Positions 3,482 to 46,072 of a DNA stretch of 64,000 nt are shown piece after piece (the stretch's first letter is position 1; each line of letters opens with the position of its first letter). Made by a program: the position numbers and the translations under genes. The stretch comes from Phytophthora colocasiae (lineage: Eukaryota; Oomycota; Peronosporomycetes; Peronosporales; Peronosporaceae), in the NCBI GenBank assembly GCA_018806915.1, contig JAGKQI010000015.1, forward strand, positions 186,001 to 250,000, read 5' to 3'. The notes beneath the pieces are model-generated. The model was given only the letters and a program-made list of their open reading frames with translations, was not told the origin of the DNA and did not search any database.

Positions 3482-5338
3482 GTGTCTTCTGCAGCCCCGG
3501 ATGATGTTCACCAGACCTCTGGTGAACACGATTGTACACCGGAGATGGATGACCCAGGGCCAGAGTCTGCGCCCCTGCCTCATGCTGCCAAGGTGCTTGT
3601 TGCCATCACTCGTGCACGCAATCAGGAAGAAGCAAACCTACCAGATGACGCGGGGGCTCGTGAACCCATGGGCCCATTGGAGTTTCAGGAAGAACGCTGG
3701 CGGCGGATCAAAGTTCACCAGACTCAAGATGTTCATCTGGCAGAACTCATTAAGTTCCTTAAGGGTGACGTGGGAGATCTACCACGACCCCGAATAAGGA
3801 AACTTGCCAGGATTGCCGATGACTTTATCTTGGATTCCAGAGACGTTTTGTACCGCCTCAGCCGTGCTACCAGGGAACGTCCGAGAGACATGGTTGATGA
3901 GCTCCGACTTGTGGTCCCCAGAGACTTGCATGCTGATATGTTGCATTATACTCATGGGGATTACCAGGGTGCTCACCAGGGAATCAAACGTACGTTCGAG
4001 AAGCTGAGCTCCGAGTTCTACTGGATTGGTATGTACGCTGATGTGGAAAGGTTCGTCAAGGAGTGTATGGACTGTGCTAGCGGCAAGGGGCGTCCCCCGA
4101 ATCCTGGACGGTCGCCCGGCAACATCGAGCCCAGTCGACCTTTTGAAGTGGTGTCCATGGATTTCGTGACGCACATGCCAAAGTCTGCCAGAGGCAACAC
4201 GTTCCTGTTGTTGTTCCAAGACATGTTCTCAGGCTATGTGATGTGCAAGCCTATGAGTATCACTACGGCTCAAGATGTCGCTGAGGCCTACGAGGAGCGT
4301 GTCTTCCGGAACTTCGGAGCTAGTTCCCTGATACGCCATGATCAAGATCCTCGGTTCATGAGTGAAGTGTTCAGGTGTTTCCGGTACCTCCTGGGAAGCA
4401 GACAAAGAGCGACTCTGGCGTACCGTCCCCAGGCGAACGGCCAACAAGAACGGTCTGTTCAGACGGTCGTGCGTGCCATCAAGGCCTACATCGCTGAAGC
4501 TGATCAAAGTGACTGGGATGACCACGCCGAACGTCTGATGTTCGCGTTGAACACTTCCTTTGATGCGACCCGTCTGGAAACACCTTTCTTTCTGGTGCAC
4601 GGATGGGATGCTCATGGGACTGTGTCCGCGATGCTTGGTCCAAAACCTTCTGGTGTACAAGAGCGCACTGCTTATGAGTGGCGTCGGAAGATGCAGCGAG
4701 ATTACAGCTACGCTCAAGCTTGTGCTGAAGAACTTCAGAAGAAGGCCAAGCGGGAGCGTTCTGAGGAACAGACCCGAAAGTGGAAGGAGTTGTCGGAACG
4801 TCTGAAGTCCGGATTTGCCGTCGGTGATGCCGTGTGGCTATACATCCCCAAGGTACAAACGGGGTTGACTCGGAAGCTCGCACACATGTGGCATGGTCCC
4901 TTCCGGATTGAAGAGATGTTGGATGATTTTCGTGTGAAACTGAAGGTCGAGGACACCGGGTATCGGGTGAACCCTTGGGTGCATATAAGTCGCCTGAAAC
5001 CGAGAGCCTTGTTTCCCAGAAGACCAACTGTGGAACTTGATGTCCACGAGGATGATGACTTTGATGCAGCACTGTTACCAGAAGACAGTTGGGAGCCCGA
5101 CACCGAGAATGATGAATATGAAGTGGAAAAGATACTTGACACTCGGTGGAGTAAGCGTACCAGGACCTCCAAGAGACTTCGCGAATACCTGGCCAAGTGG
5201 AAGGGGTACGACGAGACAGAGTGGCTACCCTTGTCAAAGCTGAACTGTGGCGCTTTGCTATATGAGTTCAATCAGAGTGCACGAGCGCGAGCTCGTTTCC
5301 AGGCAATGCAAGCTGGAGACGATCACCCCAGAGTTTAA
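3482..5338 (+). pseudogene. pol: Pol A1: integrase with C-terminal chromodomain
   Basis: This is the longest clean frame of copy A1. It holds an HHCC zinc finger (HYTHGDYQGAH then CMDCASGKG), then the DDE core: first Asp in VVSMDFVTH, second in IRHDQDPRF, Glu in RPQANGQQERS. A GPFRIEEM/VHISRLKPR module follows (the GPY/F-like end of the integrase). The last 70 residues are a chromodomain with YEVEKILDTRW, YLAKWKGY and EWLPLS. Such chromodomains tether integration to particular chromatin. There is no ATG at the frame entry, so it is the shifted continuation of pol. It ends at TAA 5336-5338. The linker at 3505-3528 holds a perfect short inverted repeat. Confidence 0.92.
3505..3528. repeat. Perfect 11-bp inverted repeat inside pol linker
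   Basis: TGTTCACCAGA at 3505-3515 and TCTGGTGAACA at 3518-3528 are exact reverse complements around a 2-nt centre. The same word pair recurs at 5362-5387 in the 3' non-coding part. It lies in the RNase H to integrase linker. Confidence 0.9.
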
Positions 5339-5582
5339 ACTCTAAAACCTATTCTGAAAACTCTGGTGAACAGTGATGTTCACCAGACGATGTATTTCAG
5401 AGATGAGGTGTCTGAGAGACACGTCTTTCGGAAATGTGATTTCGGGGATACGTGACTCCCAGAGATGGTGATTGTTATGTGAATTTGTATGGAGATGATT
5501 TTGTGGTTGTGTGTGTATGATGGAATTTTACGAAGTGGATTATGATGATGCTATGAGAAGAGGATTACTGAACGACATATGA
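5339..5582. other. Non-coding stretch between pol stop and aORF stump; 11-bp inverted repeat at 5362-5387
   Basis: No plausible gene is seen. It is T- and G-rich and would carry the convergent 3' ends of the sense Pol RNA and the antisense transcript. TCTGGTGAACA at 5362-5372 and its exact reverse complement at 5377-5387 could form a hairpin with a 4-nt loop. Similarity to the aORF of copy A2 starts only at 5583. Confidence 0.7.
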
Positions 5583-6071
5583 GGTAGAAAGGATGTGTGG
5601 CCCTCTGGGGAACAGGACTGCGACGCCAAAAAAGGGGCTCGCAGAAGCAGAAGCCGCAGACGTATCAGGCACGTTCACGTGATCATCGCCGTCAGCAGCA
5701 TCAACGCCCTGCTTCGGAGCGGCGGACGCGCTCGACTGTGAGGCTGGGGCGCTTGAGCTGCCACCAGGTGATGCGGGAGCACCGTCACCACCACCTCGCG
5801 ATGCTACGGATGCCGAAGCGGGCCCAGTGCCCGAGGCGTCGCCACTAGTAGGAGCCAATGGAGACCCCTTGGTTGCTGGATCTTCTTCTGACTTGTGTGT
5901 CAGAAAGGAAATCGGGATGTGGCCGTTTGTGGGATACGACAGTTGGCTATTTCTGAGTCTGATGGAATCAGACTGAGCGACAGGACACCAGAGATTCTGA
6001 AATCTCGGAAGTTTTGAGAGCGTCACAGCTACACTATGTTTACGGGACCTCTGACGTACTGTCCTGGCCAT
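5583..6071 (-). pseudogene. aORF stump of copy A1 (antisense ORF, 5' end only)
   Basis: Read on the - strand from ATG 6071, this matches the first 160 or so codons of the aORF of copy A2 at 14904-15392. Both begin MARTVRQRSRKHSV and pass through the same Ala, Ser and Pro-rich stretch. Similarity ends at 5583, where non-coding sequence takes over, so most of the gene (about 2.7 kb compared with A2) has been lost. The internal Met before GSPL in A2 is Lys here. The function of the family is unknown. The location, antisense to pol and next to the 3' LTR, is the same as in all other copies in the window. Confidence 0.8.
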
Positions 6072-12960: not shown

Positions 12961-13022
12961 CTCCTGTCGCGAAGTCGGTGCAACTTTTACCGCGGTGCAG
13001 GGGCGTACAGTGAACCTGGAAG
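12961..13022 (+). repeat. Right arm edge: inverse copy of helicase end
   Basis: This 62-nt segment is the reverse complement of 7949-8010 with one mismatch. It encodes the helicase end (ATFTAVQGRT) on the + strand, detached from any helicase gene on that strand. It abuts the A2 LTR at 13023. Confidence 0.9.
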
Positions 13023-14848
13023 TGTGACTACCGGTAGTGATACCAGAGTCGCACAGCAAGGTGGGCGTGTGTTACCTTGTGCTGTCCTCGTAGGTTCGTT
13101 GTCTTGGTAATGAGACCCTCGCCGGGGTCGTGAGAGTGTTGATGAGAGTGAGGGTTCCTTGCGTGACCGTCGGATGTCCTTCTGGTCCTCACAGGAGCGC
13201 TTGAGAGTCGAACGTTTTCCAGTGAACACTTGTGTACACCAGAGATTTCTGAAAGCGAAAGAGAAATTAATACAGTGGGAAGTCCTGTCACTAGACTTCC
13301 GAGATAACCGCAATATAGAGTTCCGATATACAAATATGTAGCTGCTCTTATTCTTTCCTGGCCCTTGAGCAGTGGGCTAGTTCTCCAGGTCAACTAGGAA
13401 AATGTTCACCAGACACCTGGTCTGTCTGGTATTCCCGTAACTTTCATGCACCACCCTCTAATATATAGAGGAAAATAAACCATTATATAACAGTCTACCG
13501 AGCGTCTTGAGAGCGACTGTCTAACTCTCAAAACCTGTCCAAACGTACAATATGAAATGGGCTACCGCTAGAGACAAGACAAACGACCCAACTAGTAAAT
13601 GGAATAGGTGGGTCCTCTCAGGTCTCTACGTTACGCTGATCTCCACCTAAAGGGGCTTGATAGGTGAGAGATCACACGACTCAAAGCTTTGTCGTGGCCT
13701 AGTACTTACGGGAAGCAGCAGGCAGACGACCTCGTTATAACAAAGCAAATCGAACTCGTTACAACAGGGAAAATTGAACTCTGGTTATCTATCTCGTATC
13801 TCTCTGTCTTCTGTCTTCCATATTCTCATATACACTTGGTCTCAGTATAACTCAGGGATTTTCACTCGGGCTCACTATGGTAGTCGATGCTGCAGATCTT
13901 GTCGAGTCGACACTTAATGATGTCATTACAGGGATGAGCAGGTTGCGTTTCACTTGATTGCGTGAGGTCGTGTTGGGTACACTTGGTTTCACTATGGGGT
14001 GGACTTCAGAGTGTTAGAGTCTGGTATCCTGTTCATCAGGTCTGGAATCATGTGCGTCAGGAGACATGTTCATCGGAACCATGTACTCCGGAATCATGTA
14101 CAGCAGAGTCGTAATACCAGAGTCGTGACACTTGGGTCTGATCATCGGAGTCTTGTACGTCGGAGTCTGTTCATCGGAAACTGGTAATGTCTGGAATATT
14201 GCTTATATAAGCCGGACACATCAGACTTATGTTACCAGAATCATGTTCGTCAGACTCATGTACATCAGACTTCATGTACGTCGGACTTCATGTACGTCGG
14301 ACTCATGTACGTCAGACTTCATGGTGTGATATCAGCGTTTCCATGCGTGATACCAGAAATCCATGAGTGTTTTCAGGGTGCGGAGCACGTATGCTACAAC
14401 ACACGAAGTCCGGTTGGGATATGCGCCGAGGTGCGCTACGTCCAGTGCGCGATACTTGGTATCTTGTGGGTATAACTGTATTCCTTGAACCATCATCGTC
14501 ACACAGGACGGCAACGGGATGAGGTCTCTCAGAGATACGTTCTTCTGAGAGACTTTCTGTAACAACTGAGGCACTCATCGTCGGGGAAAGTCCGGTGATC
14601 AGACTGAGTGTTATTGTCTCTCGGAGTTTGTGCACTTTTCCGAGGAACACTTCTGATCTCTTGGGCCCCTTTGCAGTACAGGTGAAGGTTAATATATATA
14701 TAGCAGTTTTCTTCCACAGATCCATCATTGTCACACGGGACATAACCTCGTCCCACATCTCCCTTTCTCCCACAATCCAGTATATGTCCAATCACATCAC
14801 AGCGAAACGTCCATATCCACTCGAAAAATCGTAATTAGCAACGTGTCA
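13023..14848 (-). repeat. LTR of copy A2 (1,826 bp)
   Basis: On the + strand it starts TGTGACTACC and ends CGTGTCA before the pyrimidine-rich PPT complement. It is the inverse counterpart of 6127-7948. The two differ by scattered substitutions, small indels and minisatellite unit number, so they are not a recent perfect palindrome. Confidence 0.85.
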
Positions 14849-14862
14849 ACCGCCCCTCCTGG
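14849..14862 (-). promoter_or_regulatory. Polypurine tract of copy A2 (complement)
   Basis: A pyrimidine run on the + strand (ACCGCCCCTCCTGG) directly follows the LTR end. It is the reverse complement of the A1 tract. Confidence 0.72.
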
Positions 14863-14903
14863 TCATAATTCGTCAGTGCGGAACTTTCTCCAAACTGAGC
14901 ATC

Positions 14904-17900
14904 ATGGCCAGGACAGTACGTCAGAGGTCCCGTAAACATAGTGTAGCTGTGACGCTCTCAAAACTTCTGAGATTTCAGAATCTCTGGTGTCCTGTCGCTC
15001 AGTCTGATTCCATCAGACTCAGAAATAGCCAACTGTCGTATCCCACAAACGGCCACATCCCGATTTCCTTTCTGACACACAAGTCAGAAGAAGATCCTGC
15101 AACCATGGGTTCTCCATTGGCTCCTACTAGTGGCAACGTCTCGGGCACTGGGCCCGCTTCGGCATCCACGGCATCGCGAGGTGATGACGGCGGCAATGCC
15201 GCGTCATCTGGAGGCAGCTCTAGCGCCCCAGCCTCACAGTCGAGCGCGTCCGCCGCTCCGAAGCAGGGTGTTGATGCTGCTAACGGCGATGATCACGTGA
15301 ACGTGCCTGATACGTCTGCGGCTTCTGCTTCTGCGAGTCTTTCTTCTGGCGTCGCAGCCCCGTTCCCCAGAGGGCCACACATCCTCTCTACCACCGAGGT
15401 GGACGATCTGTTCGGCCCTGGACAACAACCGTTGGACGAAGAGAAGTCTGACGTCCCTTCTAACTGGGTGGATCCTGAGCCACGGCCGGAGGGGCAACCA
15501 TTCTTGGTTGGCGTTCCGGCGCTCGCTGAGGATTTCCGTGTGGGTAACCACATCGCGAATATCTACGGGGGACCAGGCGTTTTGGTGGGCCTCGAGGGAT
15601 TTACGCCGGCCGACATCTCGGAACTTGAGCGTGTTATCCCTGACTTCACTGAAAGTCAGATGCTCGTTCCTCACGTGGATATCCGTGACCGCCAGACCTT
15701 GAAGCGCACATGGGGTCTGTCGATGTCCATCGGGATTTGGCTTCAATTCTTCTGCACCTCCCTCATCAGCGTCTTGCCGAGCGGGTGTACAAGACGTCTG
15801 GTTACCTGAAGCAGATGGCTGGCGCCCACCGTCGGCTTCGACTCCAAGTAGAGTCCCAGGGCAGTGCATCTCTGGTGGACACGGCCGCTATCCAGTCCGA
15901 GGATCTCAAGCGTCAGTGGGTCTTCAACTGTCAGTATTGGCGTCATGAAGTGCTGGACGCCCGGCGTACTGCCGGTGAGATCGAAGATCGTGTGAACGCG
16001 GAGTCCAAGAACCTCGCGTCGTACTATCAGGATCAGATAGAGGCCCTGGAGACCGAGAAGTCGGCCTTGGAAGAACGCCTGGAGGACTCTCAAGCGGAGG
16101 TCCGGTTGCTGAAGGCTCGCCCCACGACCACGGCCACAGACTCCTGGGGTATTCTGGAGTACCTGTTTGAACACGGGAGTTGAAGGCAGTTGGGTGCGTC
16201 TTCGGGAGCTTCTGGTGAACTTCCAGAGGGCAAGGCGCCGCCTGGAGACTGGGACACCATCATCAACGTGACTGCGATGGATCAGCGCAAGGCGGAAATC
16301 CCTGACTTCTCCAAGCGTCTGGCCAAACATCGGTCCGATCAAGCAGCAGCGGCCAAGAAATCGACCAAAGTGCTGGATCTGACGGGTGCTGGCAGTGGTG
16401 TGACGGTCTCCGGTGAGCATGCTGGCAGCTCCGAGAAGTCCGGCACTGGGTCGCCTACCAGGTCAGCCAAATCTTCCGGTTCTCCGCCACCCAAGCCTAC
16501 CAAACCTTCTGGGAAACATCGGGTTCGTGTTCCTCAGGATCGCCCCAAGAACTACACACCTGGCATCGATTCGGTGCGTCCGGCGAACGCCAAGTCTCCG
16601 GTGTCCGGGACGCCGTTCACTACGTTACCGGCTGGAGTTCGTCTGGAAAGAAGTTCGTCCAGACTTGCGCTTGGCTCTACTCGCCGGTATTTCTTACGAG
16701 ACAGCGATGAAGTGGCTGCGCACGGACAAGCCTGCCCACAGCCTGTTCACGGGGCGCCCCTTGGTACAAATGCTAGTGAGCATGATGTACTGGCGCTTGC
16801 TGAATCAGACCCCGTGGACTTCGTACGTCCCAGAGACGTATTACAAGATGGCTGAGGATGAACTGCGCCGTCTTCAGAAGAACGATGTGGAGCCACCGGT
16901 CTGGGAGACACTGGATGCTCACGTCCCGTATCCTATCAGTGAGCCTGAGTCCACAGAGGATGACCCTCAGAAGGACCCGGACTTCAAGGAGTCTGGTGAA
17001 CAAGAATCTGCGTCTAGCGACAGTGGCTCTGACGACGAAAAGTCGAGCGGCAACAGCGATGACTCTGACGACGATGAGTCTGATGATCATTCGCACGCCG
17101 GCAACAAGCGTCCACGGGATTACGAGTCCAGCGACTCGGATGACTCGGGTCCAATAATCCCCACCAAGAAGTCCAAGCGGGATAGTGTGCACGAGGCATC
17201 CCGATCCAAGTCAGGCAGTCAGAAGTCTGGTGGCACTTCCACGTCAAGTCCCAAGAGCAAGAAGTCCAGTGGTTCGCCCAAGTCAAGTTCCAAGGACAAG
17301 AAGTCTCAAGACTCCAAGTCGCCTAAGAGTTCTTCGGGCAAGCGACCTTCTGGTAAACTCCGGAAGTCAAGTCTGGTGTCCAAGTCGTACAAGTCGCTGA
17401 CACCGAAGGAGCTGCTGACAATCGAGGCCCCGGACACACATTGTTCGTCGTGGCTGTACTACGGTATCCCGGTCCAGCCGACCAGCGACACCAAGACGGT
17501 CATCGGGCAGACTCCCGAGTTCCCAGACTTCGAGCCCCACAGACACAGTCTGGCATGCCTGAAGAAACGCTGGAATTCCAAGAAATACCAAGCTCTGCTG
17601 GACGAAGTGCAAGCGCCCTGGGACGTCATGTACCAGAACCGTCGGACCGAGCTGTACTTTCACCGGCGTGAAGTCCTCTGTCCCTTGGTTCAGGCGGACA
17701 TTGAAGAACTCGCATCTCTCATGCGCAAGCACGCTCAAGCGCTGTGGGAACGTACTCACTGGGTGATCATGGATCCCGATGATGACTTGCTGTCCGGTGA
17801 ACAGCACAAGGAACGTGGGCTCCGACGTGCATCTCTATTACGCCAGTATCGAGGGACAGTATCCAAGATTCTGAAGCACAAGGATTTCCCGGAGACGCTC

Positions 17901-18161
17901 ATGTTCGAGCCTGGTATCTGGAAGATCCCAGACAAATATTGCCCATGGATCTGGCAAGACCCGCGTGCACGTGACATCGGAGGTCCCAAGTATCTGAGCT
18001 TACGCAAGCAGCTGGAAACCATCGACGCAGCGGAACCAGCGCGCACGCAGTGGGCCACAGCGTCTTCCGACAAGGACTGGATGGAATTCGTGCCATCCGA
18101 TCTCCGGAAACAAGCTCTGACGCCCGCTGAACGCGCCGAAAATCCTGTCTCTCTGAAGTAA
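14904..18161 (+). pseudogene. aORF of copy A2: unknown protein antisense to pol, about 1,085 codons
   Basis: ATG 14904 lies 55 nt from the LTR edge; family B starts 60-61 nt from its LTR, and the N-termini resemble each other (MARTVRQRSRK, MRRSVGKSSRS). A second ATG at 15105 has a good ACCATGG context. Order: Pro/Ala/Ser-rich segment; helical coiled coil (about 15975-16115); basic Ser/Lys segment (16400-16560); conserved central domain (about 16640-16870, VRPDLRLALLAG and TPWTSYVPETYYKM); acidic Asp/Ser run (16925-17100); Ser/Lys run (17160-17370); C-terminal domain (to 18161, EPARTQW). Breaks: frameshifts near 15720 and 16640 and TGA at 16181-16183. No known family is recognised. Basic and acidic runs hint at nucleic-acid or chromatin binding, but that is inference. 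Confidence 0.72.
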
Positions 18162-18290: not shown

Positions 18291-19893
18291 TGTGACGAGG
18301 TGGGTGAACACTTTCCGGACTTTCTGAAAGAAAAACCCGGTCGCCCAGAACGTATAGCTGGTGGCCAGTCCGATTCTGGAAGGAAACTTCCAGATGACAC
18401 TTGAGAACTGGGGTCAGTCTCTACCTTCCGGGATCCAAATGGGTATCCGGAAGGCGGAGTTGGCGTGTGACCTTGTGGTTATCCTCCTTGGTGTCGTATG
18501 TCTTCGAGTATCCGAAGGGTATTACCAGGTGAGTTACTTTCAGGTGTGATCAGATCCAAAGATCCAAAGTACCAAAAGTACTTCCAAATGCAGTTAGTTT
18601 TCTGGAAGGCAAAAGACTATTAGCAGAGTCCTCTTCCAACAGTTAACCAATACAATACAGAGAGTTAATATGCAAAACACGCAGCCGCTCTTATTCTTTG
18701 TGGCCCCTCGAGCGGTGGGCACTCCCAATGCCAGTCGACGGGGTCTACTTCCGGAACACTGACTCAGTTCCGGGACCCTAACAAGCGCACCACTTCCGGA
18801 TAACCACTTGGTTTCCGGAAGACAATATCAAGATCAGGATATCCAGATGCCTGTATATCCAAATATCCAAAATCCAAATGCAATCTAGACTAGGAATCCA
18901 GATGCAAACGTCCAATCACACAGTAGTTAATTCAATACAGTTCCAAGGGGCCAACTACTAACAACCTCCCAAAACGCAGTTATGATATGAAATGTGAATC
19001 CGGAATCCGGATTCCAACTGGAATATGAAATAGGAAGATCCCTTCCGGATGCGCCGCCGGATCACTTACCCAACTTGGTCTCGAACCTTTGGTGGAGAGT
19101 CCCGCGGCGATGTACGCAGTCGACGCGGCCGTACGCTGGCTCAGCTAACTCGAAGCCCTCTGACAAGAGGCTGGTCCGCAGTGCTTTGCAGTATCTTCCA
19201 GGAAAACCTTCCAGAAGACCACTTGCGCCCTTGGTGGCAAATTGAACTCTCTGTTATTTATATACAAGTCTTCTGCTAAAGATTCTGCTAACATCTTGTT
19301 TTCACTATAGGAAGCGCACACTCATCACGAGGCGCGTGTCTCTGGCGCGGAACCCCGAAGAATTCCGGCTGGTGCCGAACACATCCTGGTCGGTCGTCTT
19401 GGTCGGTCGGTCTTGACTTGGCTTGAGTATACTCGAACCTCAATGTCCATACTGGGTACAAATCAGGCAGGGTCCGGACGCCTTTGGTCATCTGGATTCC
19501 CGATCCTTGGAATCCGGAAGTCCTCAGTTCAGCACTGGAAGCATGTATCCGGAATACACTTGGTCTGTGTATGGGCGACTGGATTCTTGAGCCCTTAGCC
19601 CTGACTGGAATGGCATCCAGATTCCCGAAATCTGGATCTGGATTCCGGAAGTACGCACCAGGAATTCACTTGGGCACCACATGGTGGACTTGATTCCTGA
19701 ATAGTGGACTCCGATCGTGGTCGGGCATCCGGATTCTGGAAGTCCGGATTCCGGAAGTCCTAAAGCAATAAGGTGAAAATGTGTTCCACAGCTCAGTCCC
19801 AGGTACTCGATGCCTCAGCCAATCACCTCTCGACATATTGGGTGGCTCTGGGAGGCGGTGTCCAGATAGAAAATTTGAATCCACAGCTTCACA
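18291..19893 (-). repeat. LTR B-1 (1,603 bp), outer LTR of the array
   Basis: On the + strand it starts TGTGACGAGG and ends CTTCACA before the PPT complement; read on the - strand it is TGTGAAG...GTCACA. Its left flank is family A sequence. It is dense in TCCGGA, TCCAGA and TCCAAA words. A + strand donor-like CAG/GTGAGT at 18529 and an acceptor-like CACTATAG at 19310 are present, as in the other intact B LTRs. Confidence 0.85.
19255..19264 (-). promoter_or_regulatory. TATA box candidate, sense promoter of LTR B-1
   Basis: TATATAAATA reads on the - strand, the sense direction of gag-pol, about 630 nt into the LTR. It is kept in the other two intact B LTRs. Transcription start would be expected about 30 nt further along the - strand. 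Confidence 0.5.
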
Positions 19894-19907
19894 ACCGTCC
19901 CTCTCGT
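19894..19907 (-). promoter_or_regulatory. Polypurine tract, unit B1 (complement)
   Basis: A pyrimidine-rich ACCGTCCCTCTCGT on the + strand directly follows the LTR end CTTCACA. It parallels the family A tract. Confidence 0.72.
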
Positions 19908-19953
19908 CAGGAGCTGTCATTGAGGAATTTACCTCCGAGCTTGACAGGTCCTT

Positions 19954-22900
19954 ATGAGACAGAAGCGTGGGCAAGTCGTCCAGATCACCGGATCACCGCA
20001 GACATCCAGATCACAATCCCGCAATTCACAACGGCACTTGTCGTCGAGTCGCGTTTCCGGATTCCATACATCCAAATGCCCATCACGCAAATGTCGAACG
20101 GTCCGGTTTCAGGCGTCCCACACTGTATCCAGGTTCTACCCACCCGGGTCTCACGTATCCGGGTTCACCCTATCCGGGTTCAGGAAGTCCAAATCACTAC
20201 ACTGGGTCACATTCCATCCATCAATTGGCTGACGTGGCTTCTCTTCTGCGTCCGGTCCCAAGCGCCCCGGTCCCAGCGCACGTCAAACGGCAAGAATCAT
20301 TCAGTCGGTCCACACACATTTCACAATTTCAATGCTCCAGATCACCCAAGCGATTCCGCACGATCACATCATGTCAGCAGACGCTCCTTCGACGTTCACG
20401 GCGCCTCCACCAGGCAAACACCTCGGTTGAGGGCGACACTGAGTGGCGCTGAGTCGCACCAGGACGACACGGCAGTGACAGGGGCCCCAGATAGCGTTGT
20501 TGATGAGGGGAGACATGGTGCCGAGGGCACGGAGGCGCCCGCCCGCAGGTGGAGGCGGAGGCGTCCCTGAGGACGATGATGAGCCACTCAATCGCGTCTA
20601 CCCGAAGTTTGTCACGCACAAGAGTGCGGGAGGAGTTCCAGGCTGTCCGAGGGCACCGCGTTCGGAAGTGAATCTTCGCGTCCCATCTACTTCAAGACTC
20701 CTCCATCCCACGAGCGCGACGACAACTTGCAAGTGGTCGGCGTTCCAGCTTCAACAGTGCATCGTGATGGCAACAGTTTTCTTCGGAACGGCTATGGCGG
20801 TTTGGAAGTCCTGATGCATTCTGAGAAGCTGTCCACCAGGGAAATGGCAGTGCTACACGACTTCTGCGCCGGTCATCTGGACCTTCGGGAATTCATCCTG
20901 ACACCTCGGCCAGCCTCGCTTCCGGATGACCAGCTTCACGCACTTCTGGATAGCGTCGCCGTCAAGAGGAGATCGCCAGCCTTGTTTCGAGTACGACCCT
21001 GAGAATCTCGCGCAGCGCGTTTTGGAACCGTCTCTGCTCTTCGGAAAGTCATCCAGAAGTGCATCCGGACGCAGTCACTGCTCGAAGATCAGGATCCGGA
21101 TCTCGTCAATGTCGGCAGGGTTCACGATGAGCTCGCCGAGCTCCGTCGGGACTATCAGTTGGTAACAAGTCATCTGGATTTTCGACACGCGGAAGCTGTT
21201 TCTGAGAAAGAAGAGGCTCTCCAGAACGCCCGTGACGACATCAAGCACCTGATGGAGGAGCATGACCGCGACAAGAGGGTCTCCGGAAGCAGGTCGAAGA
21301 TCTCACGAAGCGTTTGGATGATGTCCGGACGCAGAATCGCCTTCTGGAACACCGCATCCAGAAACTGGCCTTTAATGCTGTCGACGTCATGAACTTCCTT
21401 GGCGCCGGCGAAGGACAGTCGACTGTCACTGTGAAGTGGCAACGGCTTCTGGAACTCCTGAAGCACTTTCAGAACGGCACAACTGTTCCTTCGGAATGGC
21501 GTACAGTCATCAGTGTCATCGCCACGGATGACCCAGGACACACTTCGGCCCCTTTCGTCGAACTGCATCCTTCTCACGGAAGTGATGGCGGTGATGCCAA
21601 GGAGAGCGATTCGTCGTCGTATCTGGATCTGAGTCGTGGTTCTTCTGGCGCACCTGCATCCGGAAATCCAAGTTCCAAGTCTTCTTCCAAGCGCAAGCGT
21701 TCCAGTTCCGGATTCAAGTCTTCGAAGAAGGTCCCAAGGGCTCCCGACGTGATTCAGGCTCGTCCTTCTGAGTGGATTAAACATTCGGATGACGACTGTC
21801 ATGACAAATATCCTCTAGTCTGGACGGAGACACAAGCTCGAGAGTCCTTGACGGACTACCCGGTTGTCTGGAGTGACTTGCGTCTGGATCTTCAGAAACT
21901 CATGATGTCTGGAGTCAAGTATACCGGGGCTCTGGAATGGATTCGTGAAGACCGTGCAGTTCACGTGGCTTTCCAGTTGAAACCTCTCGTGGAGATGCTC
22001 ACTCGGATGATGTTCTGAAACAAGTTGGATGACATTCCGTGGACCAAGTACGTCCCGCGTCGGTACTTCCAGATGGCTGAAGGTGTTCTCGATGGACTTC
22101 AGGATGAAGGTATCGAGCCAGAGTACTGGGGACCTCTTGTGGATGGAAGACGACGTCGAAGATCCGGATCCGGAAGCCTTGGTTACGGAAACGGTGGATG
22201 ACAAGACAGTGGATGAAGACTTCATTCCAGATGAGACAGAGGTGGTGCATCCAGATGATGATCAGGGCCACTCAAGTTCCTCTCGCCGTGATCCTGACGT
22301 TCAGTCTCCGAAATCCAAGCGTCGTCGTTTCAACCGCTCTCCCAAGTCAGCATCCAGGGGCTATCGTGCACATGACCGGTCAACCTCCTATCTAGCTGCC
22401 AAAGACTTTGGGAACCTGACAAGACTCGACAAGCAGACCATCGAGAATCCGACCGAGGGAGTGGCATCTTGGCTCCACTACGGAGTTCGTATGAAGAAGA
22501 GATCCGACGTCCACAGCGACCACTCAGACTCTCGGGTTTCCGGATTCCGCTCCCAACAGGTTTGATTTCGACCTTCTGAAAGAGCGCTTCGTGATCCGGG
22601 CGTCCGAGCTTCCTCCGCTTCTGGATGAACGTCGCCCTTGGGAACACGCATACAGTTGTCGGCCTCGGGATCTACTCTTCCATAAGCGCAGCGATCTGGA
22701 TACGAACGCCTTGGAGGCTCTTGACACCTGGCTTTCTTTCGTGAGCGGTCATCTCCAGGCCTTCCTGGGAAGAAACTCATTGGCTCACGTTCGACACTTC
22801 CGAAGCTGTGCATCCGAAGCTCGTGCGGATCTATTCCGAGCGATCAGAAGCGCCACTCGTCCCTTAGGAAGAAGGCGATCCCGTTGCTCCAGAAGATCTC

Positions 22901-23195
22901 TTCCAAGCTTCCAAAAATCCATCTGGAATGAGACGTGCGTCTGGAAGTACCCTGCGAAACTTCTGTCACTGGATCCTGATGGATCCAGAACACTTCAAGC
23001 CTGGGACTTCGGAACCATACTCGCTCAAGGAACAGCTTGGGATTCTGGATGCCATGGAGCCTGCACGTGTTCAGTGGAGCTTCTCCACTTCGGATCAGGA
23101 TCGCATTGCTCATCTTCCACCGGAAGTCCAAAGCACCCTGATTCCTGCGGATCAGCGCATCCCGGATCGATGCCCTTTGGAACTACGGAAACTAG
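19954..23195 (+). pseudogene. aORF of unit B1, heavily frameshifted
   Basis: It has the same gene layout as unit B2. ATG 19954 lies 60 nt from the LTR edge, and an extra A just after it shifts the frame. Further slips occur near 20280, 20440, 20630, 20970, 21030, 21280, 21805, 22145, 22505, 22630 and 22770. TGA at 22016-22018 replaces a TGG kept in B2 and B3. It alone retains TGG at 22727-22731, where B2 and B3 have TGA, so the reading past that point is ancestral. Ends at TAG 23193-23195. Confidence 0.72.
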
Positions 23196-23459
23196 GAGGT
23201 GTAGTTCAGATCGAGTGAGTCTTCCAATTCTCCATGTTTTCCATACGTAATTCGTCACTAATCACTCGTAATACACCTCACTTCTCCGAAAGTCAGCTTT
23301 TGTTCATCTACTTCATATCCATCCTTCTGAAACCCAGGATTCCAAAGTTCCATCATAATCCGAAATCAGTTTCCAATCGTAATCAAATCAAAGTTCAATC
23401 GGTAGTCACAGTTCAGGAATCCCCTTCTCAAAACTTCCCGGATGATAGCATCCAGAAGT
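23196..23459. other. Spacer between convergent aORF and pol stops, unit B1
   Basis: AT-rich, no gene. It would hold the 3' ends of both the antisense and sense transcripts. The same spacer occurs at 35850-36126 and 51007-51270. Confidence 0.7.
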
Positions 23460-26400
23460 CTAGACTTGGGGATGGTCGTCCCCGGCTTGCATAGCCTGGA
23501 ACCTCGCTCGCGCCCTTGCCCCTTGATTAAATTCGTAAAGAAGGGCACCGCAGCTTAACTGTGACACTGGAAGCCATTCCAGATCCGGATAGCCTTTCCA
23601 TTTGACCAGGTATTCCCGATTCCTTTTCGACGTCCGAGTACGTTTGGACCATCGAAGATCCAAAATCTTTTCGACTTCGTACTCGTTCTCTTCGGCATCC
23701 GGATTCCAACTGTCTTCCGGAAGAAGGGCAGCGTCAAAGTCATCGTCCTCGTCCACTTGGATCTCCGTGGTAGAACGTTTCGGGAAGAGTGCTCGGGGTT
23801 TCAAGCGGCTGATATGCACCCAAGGCTTGACAAGATATCCCGTGCCCTCGACCTTGAGTTTCACCCGGAAGTCCTGATGCACTTCAGCAATCCGGAATGG
23901 TCCATGCCACATGTGGGCCAGTTTCTCATAGCCCAGTCTGGACTTTCGGAATATATAACCACACGGAATCGCCTTCCGAAAATCCGGATTTCAGCCTTTC
24001 CGAAAGCTCTTTCCACTTTTGCGTTTGGATTTCGGAACGGTGACGCTTGGCTTTCTTCTGAAGTCCTTCTGCAAAAGCCACAGCGTAGCTGTAGTCCCTC
24101 TGCATTTTTCGTCTCCATTCGTACGCTGACCTTTCAGGAATACTATGTGGCTTTGGACCCAGCATTGCTGAAATTGTACTCTGGGCGTCCCAACCATGAA
24201 TTAGATAGAAGGGGGTTTCCAGGCGCGTTGCATCGAAAGAGGTATTTAGAGCGAACATCAGCCTTTCCACATGGTCATCCCAATCACTTTGATCCGCTTC
24301 CATAATATACGCCCGGATGCTTCGAACTACCGTATGAACGGAACGTTCCTGCTGGCCATTTGCCTGCGGACGGTATCCCAATGTTGCCCTTTGGAGACTC
24401 CCAAGTAGATTCCGGAAGCACTCGAAGACGGCACTTATGAATCAGGGATCCTGATCGTGTCGGATCAGGAACTTGATCCAAACTTCTGGAATACCACTTG
24501 TTCATACACTTCTGCAACATCTTGGGCAGTCGTCGAAGACATGGGCTTACACATCACGTATCCGGAAAACATATCCTGGAAACAGGAGTAGGGAAAGTGT
24601 TTCCGCGTGCGGATTTTGGAAGGTGCGTCACGAAATCCATCGAGACAACTTCGAAAGGACATGATGGCTCGATGTTTCCAGGTGACGGACCTGGATTCGA
24701 GGCCGTCCCTTTCCGGATGCACAATCCACACACTCCTTCACATGACGTTCCACATCTGCATACATTCCAGGCCAATAGTATTCCGAAAGCAATTTCTCAT
24801 GGAGTCCTCCGGATGCCCTGGTGTCCACCTTGGAAATCTTCGAGGGCATAGTGAATCATATCAGAACGTAATGATTCCGCAACCACCAATCAAAGTTCAC
24901 CCAGAAAATCTCGAGGTAGCTTCTGGGCGACTGAGGAAATCCTGCAGAGAATGTATCTGGAATCCAAAGTGAACAAGTCAGCAACCTTGCAATCTTCCGG
25001 AGACGTTTATGCGAAAACCTCTGGAAATCCCCTTTCAGGAACGCCTTCAGCTCAGACAGGTATTCGTCGGCATCCTGATGGACCTTGATCCGTCTCCAAC
25101 GCTCGGCTTGAAGTTCCAATGGTCCCATCGGAGGGGCATCCGGATCGTTTCCTTCTGGATCCCCAGCTTCCGCAATGACAGCCATCACTCGCGCAGACTT
25201 TGGTAACGGTTCCGAATCTGGTCCGGGAAGGTCGTTGTCATCCGGGATTCCGGATTCCTGAATCTGGATATCTGAAGGATGGGCCTCCGACAGTTCTGAT
25301 TTCACCAACTTCTCTTGGATTTTAGAAACAAGTTCTAAATGCATCAGGTCACTTTCGTCGGAAACCTCCCAGGATTCTCCTTGAACCAATGTCTTGGTCG
25401 TCAGGTAGTCGGCAGTCTGATTGTACTCTCGTTTGAGATGCACAAATCTGACCTTCTGAAATCTGGATTTCAGAACTCTCCCGCTTCCGCAAGGTGTTTC
25501 TGAAGATGTGGTTGGTTACAGTTGATCAGTCCTTGTACTTGCTGAATCACAATTCTGGAATCTCCCACAACCACCAAATCCTGAATGCCTCTTCCAGGAT
25601 GCCATATTCATGCCCTTCAGAAGTCCATGGTACTCAGCTGTCATTCACGGTGACGTCATCCAGAATGAAAACCTCGGGCTTCCAGAACCTTCCATCCAGG
25701 TAGCTTCCAGAGAACACACCCGCAACTTCCTTTCCGGGTGGAAGTCTTGGCAGCACCATCGAAACTCAGGATAACACCTTCGTAGTTCGCTTCCAACATC
25801 TCGATGCTCACCACTGGCGGCTTCCGGATGCGTCCTTTCGAAGGGATCAGGATTCCGAAATCTTATCCAGATGCTCTCGTGTGGTTATCCCAGCACCCAT
25901 TATCGCAGCCAACCCGTCTTCGTCCCTTTGAACCTTCCGGATATCCAGATTCCAATGTGAAAGTGCAAGTCCCCAAGGAACACATCTACCATCAGCAGAC
26001 TTCTGAGGTGATGACCCACTTCAGGACGGAGTATCGGGTGTACACAATCAGTTCGGACTGCTCAATCAGCGTCCGGAAGACCTGAAGTACTCTCAGGATC
26101 GCAATGACTTCCTTTTCCGCAATATGATAACGGATTTCGGAATCATTCAGGACGCGGCCAGTATACCGGACAGGGTGGATCACACCGTTGTATTCCTGAC
26201 CGAGGACAGCACATGCGGCCCATGCATTGGCATGCGGAATGATCACGAATGGTCGATTTCTATCAGGATGCCGAAGCAATGGGGTCGAGACGATCTTGTG
26301 CTTCCAGGATTCCAAATGCCTCCTTCGCCTGATCCAAATTCTTCCCGCCCTGATCTGCTCATCCGAAAGTTCATAGAGAACAGCGGCAATAACCGGGAAG

Positions 26401-27905
26401 TCTTCAATGAATTTGTGATAGTAGTTCAGGCTTCCGAGGAACGACTGCACCCCTTTCAGGGTTTCCGGAAACGGAAGATCCAAAACACCTTTTGCAATCT
26501 TCGGGGTAGCTCGGATTCCTTCAGCACTGATTTCGTGGGACAGGTACGGGATGGCTAGCTTTCCAAATTCACTCTTCGGGAGGCTCACCGAGATGTTCCA
26601 ATAACGCAGTCTGAATAGTAGTGCATCCAGATCTTCACATAACTGATCCCAAGTCGGCGCGCCGTGAGCGATATCGTCGATATACGAACTGCGTCCCAGT
26701 ACCGGGTTCATCTGTGAAGGAGCTGGGATATTCCTCTGGAACACGGTCATTATATCTGAGAGAATTGGCACTTGGATTCCTGAAGGGGAACTTCCAGATT
26801 CTAAACTTCCAGAATCCAGATTTTCAGATGGAGTCAACTTCAGAAAATCCAAGACTTCCTGATCCACTTCTGCTTCCTCTTCCGGGGATAGGCGCACAAA
26901 CCCCCACAAGCAGTTATTGATTACTGCCTGATATACCAAAGGGGCGTTCTTCAAACCGAATGGCATCCGGATCCACTGAAAGTGTCCAAATGGGCACACG
27001 AAAGCGGAGATCAGCTTGGCACGTTCAGACATCCTGATAGCCCAGAATCCACTGGCCATATCCAAACTCATGAACCACATTGCGCTTTCGAAGCCAATCA
27101 GGAGATCGTCAATCAGGGGAAGCGGATAGTTGGATAACACAATAAATCCGTTTACCACGATAGTCAATACACATCCGGATGTCAACACCGTTCTTCTTCA
27201 GGACAATAACAATCGGGGATGCCCATGGAGATTCCGAGTGCTCGATCAATCCAGTTTCCAAAAGCTTCTTCAGAAGTTCGTACACTTTGACCGCTAAGTG
27301 AGGAGCGATAGAACGTGGGCGTTGCGCGACAGGTTTAGCCGTTCCAACATCCAGATCGCAAATCACACCTCTGGCGGGGCTGGGCTGCATTTCCGTCGCC
27401 CAGAAAAATACTGTGATGCCGTTTCAGGATTCCTCGAAGCTTTCAGCTCTTCTTCTGGAGTAGTTCTTTCCGGATTCTCCCACATCTGCCTTCTCGATAT
27501 CACACTTCGGACTTAGCTCGTGTACTTCCGGAAAACATGACGAGTTGATCCTTCAAGTGTGACAACATATCACTCCCTTCATGCACATACACAGCTGGTT
27601 CCAAGGCGAGCTCTTCCGCATTCAGATGCAGACACCTGACAAACTTCGTTTCCAACTTCAGGATGGCCTTCTTCACAACTTCCAGATTAAATTGTCTTCC
27701 TGATGGATCCGTTCCAGAATCCTCTTCTGCGTCTAAATTGTCTTCCTGATGGATCCGTTCCAGAATCCTCTTCTGCGTCTGGAATCTCGTCCCTTGGCAC
27801 ATTCTCATCCATGGAGATCGCATCAAACCACTCGTCACCGTCGGAATCCAGAAAACCATCGCCTTCTGGAACCTGTTGTCTTCCTGAAGTCTCATTCGAA
27901 ATTCC
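23460..27905 (-). pseudogene. pol: Pol of unit B1: RT to chromodomain, protease deleted
   Basis: From 27905 downward: the spacer with the 46-bp duplication, RT (CIDYR, then after the family-wide slip DMASGFW, MPFGLKNA and SYIDDI at about 26680), RNase H, second RNase H, integrase and chromodomain ending at TAG 23460-23462. The longest intact piece is 25992-27188. Single-base slips split the RNase H and integrase parts. The junction at 27905/27906 joins this spacer straight to mid-gag, removing 2,632 bp compared with unit B2, including protease and zinc knuckles. Confidence 0.85.
27690..27782. repeat. 46-bp tandem duplication upstream of RT, unit B1
   Basis: Two consecutive copies of a 46-nt segment encoding DAEEDSGTDPSGRQ. 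As 46 is not a multiple of three, the duplication shifts the frame between the protease spacer and RT. It is present in all three large B units. Confidence 0.88.
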
Positions 27906-30801
27906 ACGTTGAACCCCGCTTCGACGATCCAGACTCCTTGGACGAACGCTTCTTCGAGCCATCCTCACCTGAACGCTTCCGGATACCCCGGCTCTCGCTT
28001 CCAGACGCCTCTCTCCTTCTGGATGTCGATTCCTTCTTCACCACGAGCGCCTGGGGTGTCGAGGACTTGGCCACTTGAGCCCTAGGGGTCTTGGATTCAC
28101 GAGTGACCAGTTGGAGAGCTGCCTCAAGCTGTGCGGCAAAGGCTTCATCTGGATTCCCAACATCTGTTTTACGAGAACTCAGATGGGATGCACCTCGGGA
28201 TGCGTTACTGGATACTGGGTACAGAGTCGGATGATAGGACGCACCTGATTCCTGAGAATCATGATTACGCCCATCTGTCTCAGCTGCGACAGGGGTCTTG
28301 GCAGTCACCGATTTCAGGTCGCGAACTTGGGTGGCCAAAACTTCTGGACAGCCCTCGCTGCTTCTCCGTCCTTCTTCCGCGCAGACTCCGAGGCTTCGAG
28401 TTCTTGCTGAAGCTCCTTCACCTTCGCGTCCTTGGAGGAGCTCGACTTGGCGGCGGAACCTCGAACTGCTTCCGGGTGCCGCTTGTGAGATTGGTGTCCG
28501 GATGACCGAACCTCCAGATTCTTGACTGTCAAGCGTGAATCCTCGTCCGAGACCAGATCTGGGATCGCTTCCTTCTTCTGGAAGAGTCTTTGAAACTTGG
28601 AATCCAGAAGGCGTTCAAGCTTCGCATTCAGATCGCCTGACATCCTCTCCAGCGCAGACCCTTGCTGATCTTCCATCCTGGCCATGACCTTCTGGAAGTT
28701 GGAACATGGTGTTCAGGGCAACTTGCGTGGATCCAGAACTGGCGGACTTCGAAGAGCGCTCAGACCTTGCTGAAGTTTCTGGAACTTCACGATCCCAACT
28801 CCCAGACTTCTGAATGCCTCGTGATCGGGATGCGTCTACAGCCTGGGATTCCTGGAAGCATTTCTCGCCTCCTTGAAGATGACTTTGTACGCTTCTTCCT
28901 GGGCTTCTCGCGATTCAAGTCTGATCCCTGCGGGACGTCTTGATCTTCGGCTTCCGGGTTCCTGTGGGAAATCTCAAAAGCGATTCCAGAATCCATCGGC
29001 GCAGCACTTCCAGATCCCCGTGCGGTCATCGCCATCGGCCTGAAGGCGGAGAATGGCATATGCGTTCCTGCACTTCTGCTCATCCCGAATCCAGAAGAAT
29101 CCGAGGTGCTCTTCTCTGGAAGTCCGAGTTCCGGAAGTCGCACTCGCCATTGACTCACTTGATCCTCCGGAAGTCTCGAACATACTTGAGGTACGTGCCG
29201 AATTCGTCCTATCAGAAAGACTATGGTACGAAGACATGTGACTTCCGGATTCCAGATCCGCTTCCAGATTCCGGACTAGCGAAGATGGCACAGACTGCAG
29301 GGATGAGGGCGACGACGACGGGATTGACGACGGCGGTGGCCGAGGCATCACACGTTGCACTCGGCTTCGGCCGGATTTCCTGATAGGTGGGTCCGCGAGG
29401 ACTCCGAACCTTCCGGAATCCAGATGCCTTCAGTTGTCTAGTGAAGTCTCGTCCCAGCAGAGATACCTCGTAATCCGACATGAATACACCTTCACCCTGA
29501 AATTGGGCTTCCGGATGTACTTGACAAAGTCGTTCCCTTCCAGTTGCCATCAGGATTCTGGGCGTACTCCTGAGCTCGCGTCACTAGTTGTCTCCATTCG
29601 ATTATCTCCACGACCAATAGCTGCAACATTTCCCAACAACTTGCCGAACCAGATCCGGGTGCACTTTGAAAACTCGCGTCCGGAACCATCCAGGCACCAA
29701 ATTCACAAATCCAAATCCCGCTTCGAAAAGCATTGTCTGCAGGACTGCGATGCATTCACGAGGCGAAAACTCCTCCGGCGGGATCATGGCACCCTGAAGA
29801 TCTTGTGCCCTTCCAAATGACCGACGTTGAATCTGGAGTTCTGAAATCCAGGCGTCCGTCTGAGCCGGCATCAACATCCGGCGGTTCAGGTGTTCCGAAG
29901 TCATCAAGGCAGCCTGGAATGAAACCTTCAGGATTCAGGTATAGTGGCGGCCAATCATATCCGACATCAGGTGCGAAGCTCCTTTCGGAGTTGTCACGTT
30001 CCCAACGCCTCACTTGTTCAGCCACATATGCCTTCATCTGGATTCCGCTCATCTGACTTCCGGCGTCCTCGGCGGTGCTTCCGGAGATTCTTCCATTCTG
30101 GAATCCGGAAAACCAAACCTGGCAGCTTCTTGACGAGGCGCTTCTGGGGCGCCGAGAACGGCGGCTCATCAGGATACAATGTTGGCATCCGGATTTCCGG
30201 AATCACTGGCGAAGACAATGTTGGTATCCTCAAGCACAGTTTCTTCCTGAACCGGCGACAACGGGCGAGCTTCCTGCTTGACTCTGTGGCGACTCTTCCT
30301 CGAACATCAGGTTCGGCATCTGATTCTCGCACCTTCCGGAGGAGAGTCCTGAATTCTATCCTCCGTAGGGTCTTCGATCTCGACAGCATCATCTCTCGAT
30401 GCTTCTCTTCCAGAATCTTCAGCATCACTTCCGACGACCTCAGACTTCCTCACCAGCCGTGAACTCCTCCAGACCGGACTCGTTCTCGGCTTCCACATCC
30501 GGATCACCTTCCGATCCGGACTCTTCTGCATCCAGATCCGACATGGATCCAGATTCCTCCTGCTCAGGGTCGTTGTCTCCTTCCGAAATCTCTTCCGAAT
30601 CACTTCCATCCAGACTTGCGTGGTGCGCTTCCTGAACGGAGGATTCAGATTCTTCTTCCAGATGATCCGACGACTCCTTCGCCTCTTGGGCAGCCCTTCG
30701 CTTCGCAGCGTTGGCCTGACGAGCTTTCTTCATGATAGTATCCAAATCCTCATGCTCTTCAGGCTGCTGCCCCTTCAACCACGCGACGATCTGGATGCCA
30801 T
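27906..30801 (-). pseudogene. gag: Gag of unit B1, 3' truncated
   Basis: ATG 30801 opens the protein at MASRSSRRLKG. The acidic N-terminal segment, globular domain, Ser-rich part and coiled-coil segments are recognisable but split by many one-base slips. The C-terminal capsid-like domain and zinc knuckles are lost in the 2.6 kb deletion ending at 27906. It is the most decayed of the gag copies. Confidence 0.78.
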
Positions 30802-30946
30802 TCCGCTTCCAGAATCCGCGTCTCCTCCTCTGCGTGCGCTTTCACTTCCAATAATCACAACTACGATCAGAAAGTTAGTTAGCACTCAGAACCCCTGAAA
30901 CTAATCAAAAAATATATAAAAATAACTCGGTAAAACCCTTTCGGTA

Positions 30947-30968
30947 TCGAATCCAGGCACGCGCACCA
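30947..30968 (-). promoter_or_regulatory. Primer binding site (PBS), unit B1
   Basis: Two nt inside the LTR edge, the - strand reads TGGTGCGCGTGCC followed by GGATTCGA after one T. The + strand is a tRNA 3' end: T-loop TCGAATCC, acceptor strand, then terminal CCA. The 22-nt match spans the acceptor stem into the T-loop. The tRNA identity was not determined. The gag leader that follows to ATG 30801 is short. Confidence 0.8.
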
Positions 30969-30970
30969 GC

Positions 30971-32576
30971 TGTGACGAGGTGGGTGAACACTTTCCGGAC
31001 TTTCTGAAAGAAAAACCCGGTCGCCCAGAACGTATAGCTGGTGGCCAGTCCGATTCTGGAAGGAAACTTCCAGATGACACTTGAGAACTGGGGTCAGTCT
31101 CTACCTTCCGGGATCCAAATGGGTATCCGGAAGGCGGAGTTGGCGTGTGACCTTGTGGTTATCCTCCTTGGTGTCGTTTGTCTTCGAGTATCCGAAGGGT
31201 ATTACCAGGTGAGTTACTTTCAGGTGTGATCAGATCCAAAGATCCAAAGTACCAAAAGTACTTCCAAATGCAGTTGGTTTTCTGGAAGGCAAAAGACTAT
31301 TAGCAGAGTCCTCTTCCAACAGTTAACCAATACAATACAGAGAGTTAATATGCAAAACACGCAGCCGCTCTTATTCTTTGTGGCCCTCGAGCGGTGGGCA
31401 CTCCCAATGCCAGTCGACGGGGTCTACTTCCGGAACACAGACTCAGTTCCGGGACCCTAACAAGCGCACCACTTCCGGATAACCACTTGGTTTCCGGAAG
31501 ACAATATCTGAAGATCAGGGATATCCAGATGCCTGTATATCCAAATATCCAAAATCCAAATGCAATCTAGACTAGGAATCCAGATGCAAACGTCCAATCA
31601 CACAGTAGTTAATTCAATACAGTTCCAAGGGGCCAACTACTAACAACCTCCCAAAACGCAGTTATAATATGAAATGTGAATCCGGAATCCGGATTCCAAC
31701 TGGAAATATGAAATAGGAAGATCCCTTCCGGATGCGCCGCCGGATCACTTACCCAACTTGGTCTCGAACCTTTGGTGGAGAGTCCCGCGGCGCTGTACGC
31801 AGTCGACGCGGCCGTACGCTGGCTCAGCTAACTCGAAGCCCTCTGACAAGAGGCTGGTCCGCAGTGCTTTGCAGTATCTTCCAGGAAAACCTTCCAGAAG
31901 ACCACTTGCGCCCTTGGTGGCAAATTGAACTCTCTGTTATTTATATACAAGTCTTCTGCTAAAGATTCTGCTAACATCTTGTTTTCACTATAGGAAGCGC
32001 ACACTCATCAGGAGGCGCGTGTCTCTGGCGCGGAACCCTGAAGAATTCCGGCTGGTGCCGAACACATCCTGGTCGGTCGTCTTGGTCGGTCGGTCTTGAC
32101 TTGGCTTGAGTATACTCCGAACCTCAATGTCCATACTGGGTACAAATCAGGCAGGGTCCGGACGCCTTTGGTCATCTGGATTCCTGATCCTTGGAATCCG
32201 GAAGTCCTCAGTTCAGCACTGGAAGCATGTATCCGGAATACACTTGGTCTGTGTATGGGCGACTGGATTCTTGAGCCCTTAGCCCTGACTGGAATGGCAT
32301 CCAGATTCCCGAAATCTGGATCTGGATTCCGAAGTACGCACCAGGAATTCACTTGGGCACCACATGGTGGACTTGATTCCTGAATAGTGGACTCCGATCG
32401 TGGTCGGGCATCCGGATTCTGGAAGTCCGGATTCCGGAAGTCCTAAAGCAATAAGGTGAAAATGTGTTCCACAGCTCAGTCCCAGGTACTCGATGCCTCA
32501 GCCAATCACCTCTCGACATATTGGGTGGCTCTGGGAGGCGGTGTCCAGATAGAAAATTTGAATCCACAGCTTCACA
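30971..32576 (-). repeat. LTR B-2 (1,606 bp), shared by units B1 and B2
   Basis: It has the same ends as LTR B-1 and few differences from it. It serves as the upstream LTR of B1 and as the downstream LTR of B2. A TATATAAATA candidate lies at 31938-31947 (- strand). Donor-like and acceptor-like + strand sites are at 31209 and 31993. Confidence 0.88.
31938..31947 (-). promoter_or_regulatory. TATA box candidate, LTR B-2
   Basis: TATATAAATA on the - strand, at the same LTR position as in B-1 and B-3. Confidence 0.5.
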
Positions 32577-32590
32577 ACCGTCCCTCTCGT
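32577..32590 (-). promoter_or_regulatory. Polypurine tract, unit B2 (complement)
   Basis: ACCGTCCCTCTCGT follows the LTR end TTCACA, as in unit B1. Confidence 0.72.
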
Positions 32591-32636
32591 CAGGAGCTGT
32601 CATTGAGGAATTTACCTCCGAGCTTGACAGGTCCTT

Positions 32637-45926: not shown

Positions 45927-46072
45927 TTCCGCTTCCAGAATCCGCGTCTCCTCCTCTGCGTGCGCTTTCACTTCCAACCATCACAACTACGATCAGAAAG
46001 TTAGTTAGCACTCAGAACCCCTGAAACTAATCAAAAAATATATAAAAATAACTCGGTAAAACCCTTTCGGTA

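Follow-up and report, generated by a model that had tools for sequence, protein, structure and literature searches.

Background

The Tat lineage, in which a dual RNase H is likewise found, includes the plant retrotransposons Grande, RIRE2 and Retand. As representatives of the aORF-3R class they carry an antisense open reading frame (aORF) between pol and the 3' long terminal repeat (LTR), known as gene23 in Grande and containing TRP28 in Retand, which the accessible text of the relevant reports describes as present in most copies and as specifying a long protein without clear relatives (PMC7264820, PMC11963269). The same texts report a nuclear aORF protein and an own promoter for Grande (PMC7264820), TRP28 antisense ORFs in 97% of the Retand clusters (PMC11963269) and, outside plants, an antisense ORF between pol and the 3' LTR of Boty from Botrytis (cited in PMC7264820). 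Here we present an analysis of a gene in a comparable position in an oomycete, which was predicted at positions 14904..18161 of the plus strand of a 64,000-nucleotide stretch of the Phytophthora colocasiae genome (positions 186,001 to 250,000 of contig JAGKQI010000015.1; hereafter the window), where two Ty3/gypsy families, termed A and B, are found.

In the human T-cell leukemia virus (HTLV), an infectious retrovirus, the antisense promoter of the 3' LTR drives the HBZ protein gene. This promoter is also cited in the literature on plant aORFs (PMC7264820), and offers a precedent by description for the antisense transcription from the 3' LTR proposed below, though the elements considered here are not infectious retroviruses of that kind. 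A precedent of a different sort is provided by the VANC proteins of the Arabidopsis VANDAL transposons: the accessible text depicts them as far more variable than the transposase and as binding family-specific iterated motifs, which are described as lying in tandemly repeated stretches within introns and upstream regions (PMC5735166). Among the oomycetes themselves, the Ty3/gypsy elements named Chronos combine a dual RNase H with a chromodomain after the integrase; they are described with ORFs 1 and 2, and the terms 'antisense' and 'aORF' are absent from the main text of that report (PMC5348765). In the open-licence literature, judged largely from titles and the beginnings of abstracts, we found no earlier antisense element gene of oomycetes.

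The gene described below is like the plant aORF-3R class in lying antisense between pol and the 3' LTR, and in coding for a long protein without clear relatives; unlike the plant elements, those of P. colocasiae carry a chromodomain and belong to a different eukaryotic lineage. Their layout likens them to Chronos, a comparison that rests on the order of domains and not on a reverse transcriptase (RT) tree, and the likeness to the Boty ORF is likewise one of place and description, not of sequence. With VANC the aORF product shares being encoded by the element, being more variable than the pol enzyme and occurring alongside family-specific iterated words; in contrast, VANDALs are not LTR elements, and the binding of motifs known for VANC has its counterpart here in word density alone. 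These comparisons suggest that the aORF is an accessory gene carried in antisense by oomycete LTR elements with a dual RNase H; it is nearest to the plant aORFs by place and nearest to VANC by its presumed mode of working.

Results and discussion

The antisense gene and its copies

In the window and in the genomic copies alike, the aORF lies between pol and the 3' LTR on the strand opposite to pol, as in the plant aORF-3R class. The family A copy in the window (14904..18161, plus strand), delimited by homology, is a pseudogene that matches in three frames (14904-15716, 15695-16672 and 16638-18158) and contains one in-frame stop ending at 16183. One B copy (32637..35846, plus strand) has a frame of 922 amino acids (aa), the longest of this family in the window, reaching to 35405, with homology continuing to 35846. 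Two further B copies on the plus strand are broken, one at 19954..23192, its start set by the LTR edge, and one at 47765..51006, recognized by a homology match; hence no copy in the window is intact. Elsewhere in the genome, intact versions of 1095 codons in family A and 1087 codons in family B (L037) are present, in keeping with the 1,070-1,090 codons originally estimated. In A, the LTR ends at 14848 and the aORF starts 55 nt inside this edge, at 14904; the B start, at 32637, is 60 nt inside its own edge. The original prediction, which had placed the starts at 55-61 nt, was thus sound on this point, as it was on the coordinates, strand, position and shared motifs of the gene.

Twenty genomic A copies were fetched, of which 13 have a single frame of 1095 codons, one of 1094 and one of 1028, whereas five lack such a frame; as 15 of the 20 had been preselected for a listed frame of at least 1070 aa, these counts are not frequencies. 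The A copy of the window is 83-84% identical to one of them (L011) over the first 600 residues and 96% over the last 507, and because of this difference it may be a mosaic.

Selection on the encoded protein

The claim that conservation of the gene reflects selection on a protein and not a chance frame was borne out by the pattern of substitutions. The ratio of nonsynonymous to synonymous polymorphism (pN/pS) is 0.17 among 15 A copies (105 pairs). In 13 A copies of equal length, which were picked as open in the aORF frame and not for stops in other frames, the aORF frame has zero stops, a pN/pS of 0.18 and 149, 107 and 404 variable sites at the three codon positions, while each other frame is interrupted by 16-53 stops. 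No other frame can explain the conservation, and frame-shadowing of another conserved sequence is ruled out because all the alternatives carry many stops. One antisense frame also gives a low ratio (0.26), yet it has 31-37 stops, and this value is probably the mirror of the aORF third positions. In our judgement, the choice of open copies is unable to push pN/pS this low.

The constraint is unevenly distributed. Across 12 A copies, pN/pS is 0.065 for the last 337 codons of pol, 0.075 for aORF codons 601-1095 and 0.235 for codons 1-600; the C-terminal half of the aORF is constrained as strongly as the integrase. The first 60 codons of A reach 0.43 with few changes (13 copies), and the N-terminal extension of the clade that includes family B (clade II, below) is less constrained than the remainder in most pairs compared. 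Because of this weak constraint at the N-terminus, the first ATG appears less sure as the start of translation than an inner one at 15105..15107 (plus strand) in A; annotated Phytophthora relatives, when aligned, begin near the inner ATG, further in than the first.

Between family B and its relative B', nonsynonymous divergence (dN) is 0.386 and synonymous divergence (dS) 2.16. Within families and between B and B', dN/dS is clearly below 1 and not near it, as expected if a protein is selected; for A against B, saturation of dS makes the between-family ratio no more than a bound. We regard it as practically certain that the aORF is a real, selected protein gene.

Phyletic distribution and divergence

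The gene occurs in no fewer than six element families, namely A, B, B', C, D and E, of this genome, whose assembly comprises 92.5 Mb in 105 contigs. Genomic aORFs were recovered with 1062 codons in B' (L039), 1034 in C (L043) and 1018 in D (L041 and L045), while the family E matches are mostly 77-88% identical to a P. citrophthora protein, with a few at 53-76%. Ten genomic loci keep the frame to the C-terminus of their family in seven cases and not in the other three. The genome search scored best candidates only; within this scope an aORF match lies on the opposite strand, within 3 kb on the 3' side, at no fewer than 50 of the 85 integrase places scored (40 in one scan and 10 in a second). 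A same-strand aORF next to an integrase was seen once, as a family E match in the second scan, and never in the first.

The protein relatives found are all from Phytophthora: seven of seven in the first search and, when the search was limited to the C domain, two of two (P0009 and P0010). A full-length alignment search of a large protein set yielded no relatives, possibly since the list of candidates had been taken up by low-complexity words. The sequences fall into clade I, which unites A with seven Phytophthora proteins, and clade II, with B, B', C, D, P0009 and P0010. The proposed homology of the A and B genes is firmly upheld, both by direct alignment of an A protein with the B sequence of the window (28.9% identity over 910 aligned positions, E 1e-83) and by comparison of the two clade profiles (probability 100, E 2e-115, 810 columns).

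The integrases of A and B are 82% identical (dN 0.149), in contrast to 31% for their aORF proteins (dN 0.864), with dS saturated in both comparisons. The aORF protein is thus constrained inside a family and diverges far more than the integrase between families. Swapping of aORFs between families as the source of this divergence is without support, the integrase dS being likewise saturated.

Protein architecture

The protein displays a common order of parts, comprising a low-complexity head, a conserved N domain, a likely coiled coil, a Ser/Lys linker, a central domain, an acidic run, a basic run resembling a nuclear localization signal (NLS) and a conserved C domain; the coiled coil is suggested by weak database matches and not by computation. 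NLS-like basic words occur in 15 of 16 proteins compared, three of the 16 being close A copies. None of the 16 had a Pfam match above the cut-off, the best below it being TPR_MLP1_2, YL1 and Ustilago_mating. Among 25 of the 33 Pfam families listed for them (E up to 1), neither TRP28 (PF04195) nor the VANC domains DUF1985 and DUF287 (PMC5735166) appear. A search of the PDB sequences found no match for one protein, and a profile gave 18 weak matches, mostly to coiled coils (best E 0.023). In Rfam, nothing reached the gathering threshold over 14000-19500.

Dense family-specific words

Family B is filled with the word TCCRGA in both coding and non-coding DNA (LTR, gag, pol and aORF). The B tandem array (18291..64000) is saturated with it: there are 37-63 occurrences per 4 kb from 16001 on (40-63 from 20001, the 16001-20000 bin spanning the A/B boundary), compared with 1-6 in each of the four preceding bins. 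For the extended form [AT]TCC[AG]GA[AT], counted in either orientation, family B has 22 in the LTR versus 0.5 in shuffles, 26 versus 1.1 in the aORF, 44 versus 2.2 in pol and 31 versus 1.3 in gag, whereas the controls stay close to their shuffles, with 1 versus 1.0 in the Helitron-like stretch, 3 versus 2.1 in the left A element, 0 versus 0.4 in the A LTR and 2 versus 0.7 in the A aORF. Family A has a word of its own, GTAC[AG]TC[AG]GA, found 10 times versus 0.1 in 1-8007 and nowhere in the B array. An iterated word, TCATGTACGTCAGACT, is also present in the A LTR, in 5.3 copies at 14241-14323.

When coding frames were compared with 500 shuffles that keep protein and codon usage, TCCRGA exceeded all shuffles in five of five B frames, and nothing did so in three of three Helitron frames; TCCRGA and TCCAAR pass in B', and TCCAAR and GTCCAA in C. 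The two orientations are equally frequent in family B (58 TCCAGA and 62 TCTGGA, besides 81 of the self-complementary TCCGGA), so that the signal points to double-stranded DNA. Examined for a periodicity at 3, 10, 10.5 and 11, TCCRGA gave phase strengths of 0.06, 0.11, 0.08 and 0.03. The aORFs of B and B' have 9 word positions in common, out of 39 and 28, where 0.3 are expected; some words are therefore inherited, but most are not.

A putative promoter

The core promoter of oomycete genes that combines an initiator (INR) and a flanking promoter region (FPR) has been described, in the accessible text, as YCAYTYY, 2 nt and MWTTTNC near the transcription start (PMC3599244). Read along the aORF strand, the sequence inside the LTR edge begins with the complement of the polypurine tract, after which comes a block resembling this promoter. 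In A the putative tract, read from the sequence as pyrimidines on the plus strand, is at 14849..14860 (minus strand), and the INR+FPR-like block at 14873..14888 (plus strand), 15 nt before the ATG; it was scored on L011, with identical letters in the window, and agrees at 10 of 13 fixed positions. The corresponding putative tract of family B is at 32577..32588 (minus strand), at the LTR edge, with the aORF ATG 60 nt further on. All five families tested have, at one aligned place 15-21 nt before the ATG, a block agreeing at 10-11 of the 13 positions. It is quite likely, from these features, that the aORF has its own promoter.

Possible functions of the aORF protein

We propose that the aORF would be transcribed against gag-pol from an oomycete-type core promoter of its own between the polypurine tract and the ATG, with the 3' LTR helping. 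The product would be a nuclear protein that either activates transcription or counters silencing by acting on the chromatin or DNA of the element family encoding it, and might read the dense word of the family in the way in which VANC proteins read motifs in VANDAL transposons. The word-reading step is proposed because divergence between families is far greater for the protein than for pol, and because the families carry different dense words. These steps differ in strength: the protein is probably nuclear, a family-specific action on its own DNA is conceivable but tentative, and reading of the dense word is doubtful. As a whole, the picture of an antisense-transcribed, nuclear, family-specific accessory protein acting on its own element's DNA in the VANC manner is one we favor provisionally, with confidence slightly short of an even balance.

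Several observations weigh against this proposal. One of the proteins, P0010, has no NLS-like word, and none of the 16 proteins shows a DNA-binding or chromatin domain scoring above a curated Pfam cut-off. The promoter match is modest, since 15.5% of random 75-mers from the window reach at least 10 of 13 positions and 2% at least 11; the INR of clade II departs from the pattern at its last two pyrimidines, and shared descent alone could line up such blocks. The dense words are spread over coding DNA too, unlike the described VANC motifs, and were picked from the same sequences in which they were tested, so that the weak cases deserve to be discounted: in D, TCCRGA is marginal (14 versus a shuffle maximum of 13), and in A, ACCAGA passes in pol and nothing in the aORF. 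The size of the B signal goes far beyond what such picking could produce. Only 7 of the 14 words in the B integrase coincide with amino acids that are the same in A (4 of the 14 are also words in A), and the gain of words was accordingly not purely synonymous. With five families compared, protein and word may simply share one phylogeny. A further oddity is the inner 1.1 kb of the LTR, whose mean difference among 12 A copies (0.059) is lower than that of the synonymous sites of pol (0.15).

Much of the same evidence could be read as pointing to an accessory factor of the particle or of import, which would work with Gag or the pre-integration complex in cDNA import or integrase tethering and would read no word. 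The NLS-like words in nearly all proteins, the likely coiled coil and a C-terminal half constrained like integrase are all compatible with such a factor, and reviewers of the plant genes suggest roles like those of retroviral accessory proteins, in the text accessible to us (PMC7264820). A separate antisense transcription unit would, however, make co-assembly with Gag less direct, and fast divergence between families whose integrases are 82% alike fits a partner that itself varies by family; on balance we consider this factor rather unlikely. An envelope-like gene would occupy the same place between pol and the 3' LTR, and in two of the 16 proteins, both from Phytophthora, the best 19-residue stretch has a borderline hydropathy of 1.61; the opposite strand, the charged low-complexity parts and values of at most 1.48 in the other 14 make it scarcely credible, and this simple scan of the 16 proteins detected no transmembrane segment. 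Descent from an inverted duplicate of gag is suggested by the Ser/Lys-rich composition of both proteins and by their lack of Pfam matches above the cut-off, but hhalign returned probabilities of just 1.35% and 0.40% against a single 1010-aa frame at the B gag position, and we hold it to be highly improbable.

The remaining alternatives concern the nature of the locus itself. Convergent transcription is likely from the layout, and LTR elements of P. infestans yield sense and antisense small RNAs according to the accessible text (PMC3522703); the aORF transcript might thus regulate or silence the element through double-stranded RNA, its open frame being secondary. Intact frames of 1095 codons and pN/pS of 0.17-0.18 nevertheless need selection on a protein. 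The codon evidence refutes an RNA device as the sole role, and its primacy is very improbable, even though both roles may coexist. The large size of the gene and the lack of a recognized counterpart in known elements could also indicate a captured host gene, or a host gene residing in elements. Among the best candidates, to which scoring was confined, it is a repeated gene and is present at most of the scored integrase places; this makes a host gene very improbable, although single-copy host versions might lie outside that set.

Element families and other features of the window

The pol domains follow one another as RT, gypsy RNase H, an additional RNase H (RVT_3 type), integrase and chromodomain. 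RT_RNaseH followed by RVT_3 was detected in an A pol (L011) and in a B piece, the archaeal-type label for RVT_3 resting on layout, and Chromo after the integrase scored above the cut-off in both families. Domain searches place an integrase with chromodomain at 3482..5338 (plus strand, at the pol end) in A and at 51271..52785 (minus strand) in B.

The left end of the window holds an A pol on the plus strand, behind which a homology match reveals a remnant of the aORF (residues 1-166) at 5574..6071 (minus strand). A second, inverted A piece ends at 18290; its 3' LTR (TG...CA; 12965..14848, minus strand) adjoins the aORF start. Both A pieces are broken at the same point between pol and aORF (5583 and 18290); in intact copies, L009 and L011 among them, 10 bp separate the two positions. 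Between two inverted A LTRs lies a Helitron-like stretch (Helitron_like_N, PIF1 and DUF6570) at 7944-11895. The arrangement at 10336-18400 recurs at another locus (L025, G000:C26) with 98.5% identity, indicating that the segment was duplicated. After 18290 follows a tandem array of B elements on the minus strand, in which copies at 18291-64000 stand head-to-tail at a spacing of 12.7-15.3 kb, and adjacent elements seem to share LTRs. A frame of 1010 aa at the gag position of B, without a Pfam match, spans 57932-60964.

Conclusions

Why plant elements carry antisense genes at their 3' LTR is a long-standing puzzle. The presence of such a gene, with no detectable sequence relation to the plant ones, in an independent lineage that has likewise acquired a second RNase H suggests a need common to both, and the combination of strong constraint within families, fast change between them and family-specific words makes the question of self-recognition or anti-silencing testable. 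In its fullest form, the analogy with VANC would have oomycete LTR elements practicing self-recognition, with an antisense-encoded nuclear protein binding the family word and the whole element, coding DNA included, reshaped at synonymous sites and at some that change amino acids so as to contain about 200 words per 15-kb copy. This scenario is distinctly doubtful at present; if true, it would, together with the dual RNase H, constitute a further trait on which the LTR elements of oomycetes and plants have converged.
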